Of a DNA stretch of 64,000 nt, positions 30,595 through 44,022 are shown in pieces. A program made the position numbers and the translations under genes. The stretch is from Devosia sp. A16 (GTDB lineage: Bacteria > Pseudomonadota > Alphaproteobacteria > Rhizobiales > Devosiaceae): NCBI RefSeq assembly GCF_001402915.1, contig NZ_CP012945.1:3945501-4009500 (forward strand), given 5' to 3'. How positions within the stretch are numbered: the stretch's first letter is position 1; each line of letters begins with the position of its first letter. The notes under the pieces were generated by a model, which did not search any database, was not told the origin of the DNA, and saw nothing but the letters and a program-made list of their open reading frames with translations.

Positions 30595-32064
30595 ATGCAG
30601 CAGGTCGATTTCCGGGCGGCTGGACTTTCACCCAAGGAATTGCCGGTTTGGCAGTATCTGAATGAACTCTATTCGCGGCACCACCCCAACCAATCGGGGC
30701 AATTGGCGAGCTACATTCCCGAGCTGGCGGCTGTCGATCCCGATCAGTTCGCGCTGGCCTTCGCCACCACCGACGGTTTCGTCTACGAGGTCGGCGACAC
30801 TGGTGCCCTGTTCACTATTCAGTCGGTGTCCAAGGCGGTGATCTATGCCTTGGCGCTCGAGGATCATGGGCGCGAGGAGGTGTTGCGGCACATTGGCGTC
30901 GAGCCCTCGGGTGAGGCGTTCAACTCCATCACCTTCGACGAGCGCAACAACCGGCCCTTTAACCCGATGGTCAATGCGGGCGCCATTGCTGCCAGCGCAA
31001 TGATCAAGGGCGCCGATCACGCCGAGCGCTATCAGCGCATCCTCGATATCTTTCAGCGGTTCACCGGCCGGCTTCTCGATCTCGACGAGGCGGTCTACCG
31101 TTCAGAAAGCCTGACCGGCAACCGCAACCGGGCGATCGCCTATCTCGAACTCAACGCCGGAATGATCGCAGGCGACGTCAACGAACATCTAGACCTCTAC
31201 TTCCGCCAGTGCTCGCTGTTGGTCACAGCGCGAGACCTGGCGATGATCGGCGCCACCCTGGCTAATGGCGGTGTCAATCCGCTGACGCGCCAGCGCGCCA
31301 TTTCCACTGACAACGTCCGTTCGGTGCTGTCGGTCATGAACACCTGCGGCATGTACGACTATGCCGGCGGCTGGCAGTTCAGCGTCGGCCTGCCCGCCAA
31401 GAGCGGGGTAGGGGGCGGCATCTCCGCCGTGCTGCCCGGCCAGCTTGGTATTGGTACTTTCTCTCCGCGGCTCGATGCAGTCGGCAACAGCGCCCGCGGG
31501 GTGAAAGTCTGCGAGGACATTTCGGCAAACTTCCGTTTGCATCTGTTCGAGGATCGCGGCGGTGGGCTCGTGCCGCTCCGCCGCGTCTATCGGTCCGACG
31601 AAGTGCACTCCAAGCGCGTGCGCCGACACGAGCAGGCGCGGAAACTGGACCGCTACGGACACCTGATCGCCGTCTACGAATTACAGGCGGAGCTGGGCTT
31701 CATCGAGGCCGAGCGAGTCACCCGGCGGATTATCGAAGACCTCGACAGTGCCTATTACTTCGTCATCGACCTGACCCGGGTGCTGCGGATCGACGGCGTT
31801 GCCGTCACCCTGCTGAACACGGCCCGGCGCACCCTGCAGGAAGCCGGCAAAGGGTTTGCCGTGGTTTCCATCTCGGGAGAGTTGCCGCACACCTTCGAGC
31901 AGGACATGCATTTCCCCACGTCGACCAGGCGCTCGAATATTTCGAGGATCGTCTGCTCGATCAGGCGGGCAGCGGCCAAACCGATGCCGCGGTTCCGCTC
32001 GCTGAGTTCGATCTGCTGGCCGGACTTGACCAAGCAATGCTGGCGGCGCTTGCCAAGCGCCTGA
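30595..32064 (+). CDS. glsA: Glutaminase A with STAS domain; reading frame broken near 31911
   Basis: 489 residues as read. Residues 20-310 are a serine-dependent glutaminase: the Ser-x-x-Lys pair is Ser77/Lys80 in FTIQSVSKAV, followed by FNPMVNAGAIA and SGVGGGISAVLPGQLGIG. It hydrolyses glutamine to glutamate and ammonia. A STAS domain follows (DLTRVLRIDGVAVTLLNTA). After EQDMHFP the frame drifts into unrelated Arg/Ser-rich sequence; the -1 frame continues HVDQALEYFEDRLL and then the cNMP domain. The original protein was therefore probably about 611 residues ending at 32429. The start ATG at 30595 has only a weak ribosome-binding site. Confidence 0.85.
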   Translation: MQQVDFRAAGLSPKELPVWQYLNELYSRHHPNQSGQLASYIPELAAVDPDQFALAFATTDGFVYEVGDTGALFTIQSVSKAVIYALALEDHGREEVLRHIGVEPSGEAFNSITFDERNNRPFNPMVNAGAIAASAMIKGADHAERYQRILDIFQRFTGRLLDLDEAVYRSESLTGNRNRAIAYLELNAGMIAGDVNEHLDLYFRQCSLLVTARDLAMIGATLANGGVNPLTRQRAISTDNVRSVLSVMNTCGMYDYAGGWQFSVGLPAKSGVGGGISAVLPGQLGIGTFSPRLDAVGNSARGVKVCEDISANFRLHLFEDRGGGLVPLRRVYRSDEVHSKRVRRHEQARKLDRYGHLIAVYELQAELGFIEAERVTRRIIEDLDSAYYFVIDLTRVLRIDGVAVTLLNTARRTLQEAGKGFAVVSISGELPHTFEQDMHFPTSTRRSNISRIVCSIRRAAAKPMPRFRSLSSICWPDLTKQCWRRLPSA

Positions 32065-32429
32065 GACCGCAGCCATTCGAACCCGGGACCAAGCTGATCG
32101 CGCAGAACGCCCGTGCCGATGAACTGTTCTTCCTCATCGAGGGGCACGTCGATATCGCCGTGCGGGTCGGCAATGCTCCGAGCCACCGGGTGAGCACGGT
32201 CGAGCCGGGCACGGTCTTCGGTGAACTGGCGTTGTTTGGGCATGCGCCGCGCACCGCCGATGTGGTGGCCGTCAGCACGGGGACCGCGCTGGTGCTCGAT
32301 CGAGAAGCATTGGACGAGCTGGCGAAGGACGCTCCGGCGACCCACAACGCCTTGGTAATGGCGGTCGGCGCCAGCCTCGCCGAGCGCCTGCGTCGCGCCA
32401 ACGCCGAGATCCGCGCCCTGTCGCGCTAA
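32037..32429 (+). CDS. Cyclic nucleotide-binding domain, C-terminal part of the frameshifted glutaminase
   Basis: 130 residues from an internal ATG. This is a full cNMP-binding beta-roll: RPQPFEPGTKLIAQNARADELFFLIEGHVDIAV, then TVEPGTVFGELALFGHAPRTADVVA with the phosphate cassette FGELALF. Read upstream, the same frame is open back to the glutaminase frameshift and supplies the expected linker (DQALEYFEDRLLDQ, LAEFDLLAGLDQAML). It is therefore most likely the third domain of one glutaminase-STAS-cNMP protein. Independent translation from 32037 cannot be excluded. Confidence 0.75.
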   Translation: MLAALAKRLRPQPFEPGTKLIAQNARADELFFLIEGHVDIAVRVGNAPSHRVSTVEPGTVFGELALFGHAPRTADVVAVSTGTALVLDREALDELAKDAPATHNALVMAVGASLAERLRRANAEIRALSR

Positions 32430-32432
32430 GGC

Positions 32433-33221
32433 CTAGTCGCCCGGGTCGGGGATGTTCAGCAGGTGCCCGCAGGCCTTGCAGTGCACCGCGTCGGGTTCAT
32501 GCCGCTGCAATCCGCATTGCGGGCAGGGGAAGACCACCTTGTGCGGCCGGAACAGCGACTGCGCCAACCGCACGAATAGCGTGATGCCGATGATCATCAC
32601 CGCAATCGAGGTCAGCTTGCCGGCGGTGCCCGGCAGCGTTACGTCGCCATAGCCGGTGGTCGTCACCGAGGTGACGGTGAAGTAGAGCGCGTCGACATAC
32701 CCCTCGATGCCGGAATCGGGGCTTGCGAAGAACGTCAGGACGAAGCCCGAGACCAGGAACAGGAATGTCACGATATTGACGATCGCCTCGCCCTGCTCGC
32801 GGTACTGCGTCAGCCTGAACTTCTTGAGCGGCCGCCACAGCACACCGCTCCGCGACAGGGTCCAGAGTCTGAGGATGCGCAGAAAGCCGAAATTGGCGAG
32901 CCACGCCGGCAGCAGCAGCGTGACGAGGATGAAGATGTCGACAATGGTGGTCGGCTGCCGCAACCAGCGCAGCGGATCGGTCGCGGCGAGCCCGCGTGCC
33001 AAAAGGTCAGCGACCAGCAGCACGGCAACGGCGATGTCGATCCAGATGAAGCTGGGCCGATCGCGCAGCAGAGGCGTCGCAATGAAGAAGGCGATGATAG
33101 CGAGATCGACCAGCAGCACGGCAAACTGGAAGCGCAGCGCCGTGGGAGAACTGCCGTGATAAAGCAGCCGCAACTTCGAGCGCAGGCGAGCCAAACGGTG
33201 CTCGGAACTCAACTCATCCAT
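32433..33221 (-). CDS. Voltage-gated-like potassium channel with C-terminal zinc ribbon
   Basis: Protein of 262 residues. Six hydrophobic helices; the fourth has spaced arginines (FLRILRLWTLSRSG), like a voltage sensor. The pore signature TTTGYGD lies between helices 5 and 6. The C-terminal end has CPQCGLQRHEPDAVHCKACG, a two-CxxC zinc ribbon, in place of the usual RCK/TrkA domain. It likely mediates K+ flux at the inner membrane. Convergent with the glutaminase gene by only 3 bases. Confidence 0.87.
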   Translation of the reverse strand: MDELSSEHRLARLRSKLRLLYHGSSPTALRFQFAVLLVDLAIIAFFIATPLLRDRPSFIWIDIAVAVLLVADLLARGLAATDPLRWLRQPTTIVDIFILVTLLLPAWLANFGFLRILRLWTLSRSGVLWRPLKKFRLTQYREQGEAIVNIVTFLFLVSGFVLTFFASPDSGIEGYVDALYFTVTSVTTTGYGDVTLPGTAGKLTSIAVMIIGITLFVRLAQSLFRPHKVVFPCPQCGLQRHEPDAVHCKACGHLLNIPDPGD

Positions 33222-43931: not shown

Positions 43932-44022
43932 GGAGAGGTGGCCGAGTGGTCGAAGGCACGCCCCTGCTAAGGGCGCAGACCTCTAAAGGGTCTCGTGGGT
44001 TCGAATCCCATCCTCTCCGCCA
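43932..44022 (+). tRNA. tRNA-Ser (anticodon GCT)
   Basis: The 91-base gene includes an encoded CCA. The acceptor stem GGAGAGG pairs with CCTCTCC, the discriminator is G, and the anticodon loop reads CTGCTAA with anticodon GCT for AGC/AGT codons. A long variable arm (about 43973-43993) confirms tRNA-Ser, and the T arm contains GGTTCGAATCC. The 165 bases after it show no gene. Confidence 0.97.

Follow-up and report, generated by a model that had tools for sequence, protein, structure and literature searches.

A three-domain glutaminase gene whose frame is broken by one base at a slippery heptamer that is most likely incidental

The DNA analysed here (the window) is a 64-kb stretch, G000:C1:3945501-4009500, of a genome (G000) assembled as a single contig of 5.03 Mb. 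On its plus strand an open reading frame of 489 aa (30595-32064, with ATG at 30595 and TGA at 32062-32064) encodes 441 residues of glutaminase and STAS family sequence and then 48 unrelated residues. Pfam matches within this frame are to the Glutaminase domain (PF04960, residues 35-318, 30697-31548, E 2e-116) and the STAS domain (PF01740, residues 358-436, 31666-31902, E 2.2e-8). A third match, to the cNMP_binding domain (PF00027, 32070-32327, E 1.3e-18), lies on the same strand in the −1 frame, and the three Pfam domains stand in the order glutaminase-STAS-cNMP only when both frames are counted. At the break the 0 frame reads CAT (31909) TTC CCC ACG and continues to the TGA, while a −1 shift at T TTC CCC (31911-31917, plus strand), which consists of ordinary His-Phe-Pro codons, gives HFPHVDQALEYFEDRLL and a frame that is open to a stop at 32427-32429, for a total of 611 residues. 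The −1 continuation (31917-32429, plus strand) comprises a linker and the cNMP domain, and T TTC CCC sits in the 0-frame phase within the overlap of the two frames. The frame break is therefore confirmed as the first-pass annotation described it, both in the position of the heptamer with the loss of family sequence after CAT TTC CCC ACG and in the full cNMP domain that runs in the −1 frame to 32429, to which the Pfam match corresponds. Comparison with two relatives from the same genus (G011 and G012) likewise returned the gene as a two-frame split at 31917, and a repeat of the census of disrupted genes described below gave the same place. An Rfam scan of the window found nothing at the glutaminase gene, its sole match being one tRNA (43932-44019).

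In Devosia and other Alphaproteobacteria, glutaminase-STAS-cNMP proteins have the same domain order and length (611 codons in the nearest), and their identity across the full 611 residues reaches 97%, whereas the window copy alone changes frame between STAS and cNMP. When the first 441 residues were compared with the 18 other genomes of the genus, 10 gave a match. In eight of them the identity is 69-98% and the open frame 614-696 codons long, among them G014 (614 codons, 98% identity over these 441 residues), G012 (625 codons, 97%) and G011 (621 codons, 95%); the remaining two are distant glutaminases (40 and 43% identity). A wider homologue set was assembled from a contig scan, taking only the best match per locus, and consists of 52 loci, of which 42 span the break site (L065-L070, L072, L073, L076 and L077 were left out). 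In all 42 a single frame without a stop inside the match crosses the site, the stretch equivalent to the −1 continuation being in one frame with the rest of the gene, and three of the 42 are relatives from the same genus with 95-98% identity. A Pfam scan of nine relatives gave the order glutaminase, STAS, cNMP in eight; in the other one, L063, glutaminase and cNMP were found but no STAS match at E ≤ 0.001. The break is unique to G000, with intact orthologues in its close relatives, as would be looked for in a recent indel. The gene (30595-32429) is patchily distributed across its genus, eight of the 18 other genomes (completeness 91-100%) having no match to the glutaminase protein, and its loss would for that reason be tolerable. 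No second match to the protein was found in its own genome at E ≤ 0.001, so that the break would hit the only such copy.

The alignment at the site was used to follow both the heptamer and the run of Cs. No heptamer of the form X XXY YYZ is present at the aligned site in any of the 42 homologues; in L038 an unrelated, in-phase GGGTTTG lies close by, within a stretch that is missing from the window. The five relatives nearest by full-length identity encode His-Phe-Pro-Asn here, as CAC TTC CCC AAT (L026 and L027), CAT TTT CCC AAT (L034) or CAC TTT CCC AAC (L028 and L029), and the heptamer is not kept because their His (CAT/CAC) and Phe (TTC/TTT) codons vary silently. The Asn (AAT or AAC) of these five stands where the −1 frame of the window has His, a residue also found, as CAT, in the more distant L031. 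Of the nine Devosia-clade loci (L026-L034), L026 and L027 match the window in having at most four consecutive Cs at the site; L028, L029 and L034 have three, and L030-L033 have two. The first-pass annotation had offered one C missing from a run of five as its simpler explanation. The general part of that proposal, a plain indel or error, is supported by the intact frame of every site-spanning relative, an outcome that makes up half of the refutation which the annotation had set for its own suggestion. The five-C part is rejected by the alignment: none of the nine clade loci has five Cs, CCC is followed by an Asn codon in the five nearest, and among the other 33 site-spanning loci only one, the distant L056 with its frame intact, has a run of five. 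In two Kocuria loci (L063:10001-11755 and L064:6233-7933) the letters aligned with the site are TTC CCC ACG, and the frame there is an ordinary, unbroken one.

Substitutions on the two sides of the break show that the tail has not decayed. The window and its nearest relative (L026) differ in amino acid at 7 of 440 codons on the 5′ side of the break and at 11 of 170 on the 3′ side. Intact pairs, such as L026 and L034 (12 of 440 and 15 of 170), show the same contrast, which means that in these genes the tail evolves faster anyway. Codon changes specific to the window after the break number 3 amino-acid-changing and 14 silent, or 2 and 14 without the broken codon, which is one of the three. Pairwise ratios of changing to silent differences after the break are normal, at 0.23-0.32 in comparisons with the window and 0.22-0.33 among intact genes. 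Under a simple neutral model of the 2 and 14 changes, which has few changes to work on and a guessed transition bias, neutrality is rejected for the whole branch (P 4e-6) and is unlikely for 20% of it (P 0.02). The tail was constrained for most of the history of the lineage, as would be the case if the break is very recent, if it is an error or if recoding goes on; an old pseudogene was rejected in view of the undecayed tail. From the purifying selection on the tail we infer that the break is recent, or else an error, unless recoding still translates the tail.

We therefore favour, at a probability of roughly 0.93, the explanation that this is an ordinary three-domain glutaminase gene, from a Devosia-like alphaproteobacterium, with a one-base break that is either a very recent mutation or a residual sequencing or assembly error. 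One base would be missing next to the Phe-Pro codons, the alignment not fixing which, and T TTC CCC would simply follow from the codons for His-Phe-Pro and would not be a recoding signal; the slippery heptamer is most likely incidental. Counting against this explanation are the selection on the tail, which is also expected from a working frameshift, the cleanness of the assembly described below, and the presence of just one such copy in the genome. If the mutation is real, the product would be a glutaminase-STAS protein that ends in 48 foreign residues and lacks the cNMP domain. Among solved structures the best E-value to the first 441 residues is that of a salt-tolerant glutaminase (PDB 3agd, 456 aa), which is similar in size to such a truncated product and is matched by residues 17-334 (E 5.4e-81). 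The best-matching stretch is essentially the glutaminase part only, and the C-terminal part of 3agd may have some similarity to STAS. A literature search of a limited collection did not find glutaminase together with STAS and cyclic nucleotide-binding or cNMP, and one on frameshifts and pseudogenes in Devosia genomes listed unrelated papers only.

Within the favoured explanation, the case in which the break is purely a sequencing or assembly error falls somewhat short of an even chance. The undecayed tail is in keeping with it, and the quality of the assembly was judged from a census of mid-gene disruptions in 664 kb of G000, 678 kb of G011 and 674 kb of G012, in which each genome was compared with the other two. 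The census drops ORFs of less than 120 aa or without the expected codon-position bias, pairs with less than 80% identity or less than 80% coverage, and breaks that fall within 12% of the gene length from its start or its end; an earlier version without the codon-bias filter was swamped by apparent shadow ORFs and was replaced. A disruption was called confirmed when seen against both other genomes, and those seen against a single relative were not counted. Before this requirement was applied, the events per ORFs tested were 16 of 435 and 13 of 367 for G000, 18 of 439 and 8 of 393 for G011, and 10 of 362 and 13 of 383 for G012; many of those seen against one relative are probably differences in start site or shadow ORFs. 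Confirmed disruptions number four in G000 (two frameshifts and two stops), none in G011 and one stop in G012. Two concordant frameshifts in G000 and none in either of the other genomes, over similar lengths, speak for an error, but the site has no long single-base run and the other concordant frameshift differs in type, since by eye it is a GC repeat that has changed in length by two bases. That second case (L101, G000:C1 about 3806040, outside the window) is a 163-aa gene in which the repeat is two bases shorter than in G011 and G012, with the break at about 76% of the length. The two stops in G000, both outside the window, interrupt ORFs that are open in both relatives: one (L103, G000:C1 about 3852957) is at 13% of a 215-aa ORF and is perhaps only a difference in start, and the other (L099, G000:C1 about 3782195) is at 65% of a 142-aa ORF. 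With only two confirmed frameshifts in 664 kb a generally noisy assembly was rejected, and the G000 assembly is largely clean. The small excess of disruptions in G000 does not separate real mutation from residual error, the numbers being small.

The first-pass annotation had also suggested that programmed −1 frameshifting at T TTC CCC could yield a short and a long glutaminase. These would be a glutaminase-STAS and a glutaminase-STAS-cNMP form, a species-specific innovation. We regard this as very improbable. It was rejected for lack of conservation and of unusual predicted structure, and it is conservation, the decisive test, that fails: the homologue alignment that the annotation had proposed as a check gave a single frame in all site-spanning relatives and the heptamer in none. 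Genes such as dnaX are subject to programmed −1 frameshifting. The window resembles them, and insertion sequences of the IS3/IS911 type, in having X XXY YYZ in the right phase and a constrained downstream frame, and differs in that its heptamer is unconserved, the predicted downstream structure is not unusual and the relatives have an intact frame. For the IS3/IS911 type the rules of such frameshifting are set out in PMC4066793. In the E. coli assays of that study most heptamers gave at least some shifting over background. ZZN codons made of pyrimidines alone outperformed mixed ones, and shifting was generally easier where X and Z are both pyrimidines, as they are here, a class trend that counts for the shiftiness of T TTC CCC. 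In the same study CCN in the A site shifts less on average than UUN or AAN, and U_UUC_CCC is not among the 21 motifs of the gene-search set; both points count against the programmed reading.

Heptamers of this form are in any case common. In 370 gene-like ORFs (133,739 codons, 464 kb) there are 201 in-frame X XXY YYZ heptamers, of which 18 are of the TTTCCC type, and 140 of the ORFs (about 38%) have at least one. A break falling at random would land on a heptamer with a chance of about 0.35% (201 × 7 bases in about 401,000), a figure to be read with the fact that the heptamer was picked after the break had been seen. Small indels tend to fall in short single-base runs. A possible Shine-Dalgarno-like stimulator, AGGA, precedes the heptamer by 6 nt (31901-31904), but the three closest intact relatives have it too, as part of their Gln-Asp codons. 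Just 3′ of the heptamer a hairpin is predicted (31920-31961, plus strand), with a stability no better than chance: the 80 nt after the heptamer fold with a z-score of −1.17 (21 of 200 shuffles as stable) and the first 60 nt with −1.69 (13 of 200), against 0.19, −1.36 and −0.92 for the same region in three intact relatives (five sequences folded, the window region twice). A hairpin that starts 9 nt after the motif and is 30 nt long at −12.4 kcal/mol fits the stimulator rule (a start 4-10 nt after the motif) of PMC4066793, our truncation steps being 4 nt where that source has 1 nt. The rule is, however, also passed by 99 of 120 random places in 664 kb, 49 of them with a per-base score at least as good, and by the three intact relatives tested. 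By these measures of folding and of hairpins the predicted RNA structure downstream of the heptamer looks ordinary. An indel beside short base runs therefore easily mimics a slippery site, both heptamers and qualifying hairpins being this frequent. Were the programmed reading true, it would be a case of newly evolved recoding that parts a metabolic enzyme from its cNMP-sensing domain, and the comparative evidence is against it.

Equally improbable, in our estimate, is a newly arisen compensatory or programmed −1 shift, in which after the loss of a base some full-length, cNMP-regulated glutaminase would still be made by way of T TTC CCC. The tail would then stay under selection, and slippage would set a ratio of unregulated to regulated enzyme. 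Less probable still is that the break has split the gene in two, into the glutaminase-STAS protein and a separate 130-aa cNMP protein made by coupled translation from ATG 32037: that ORF (32037-32429) spans the whole cNMP domain and its ATG lies 25 nt before the upstream stop, overlapping the end of the upstream ORF, but by eye there is no clear ribosome-binding site before 32037 and all 42 site-spanning relatives, each represented by the best match at its locus, keep one frame. Transcriptional slippage was judged unlikely, as the runs (T3 and C4) are short. Downstream of the glutaminase gene lies a convergent ORF of 262 aa (32433-33221, minus strand), which contains TTTGYGD, a motif that we take to be a potassium-channel selectivity filter.
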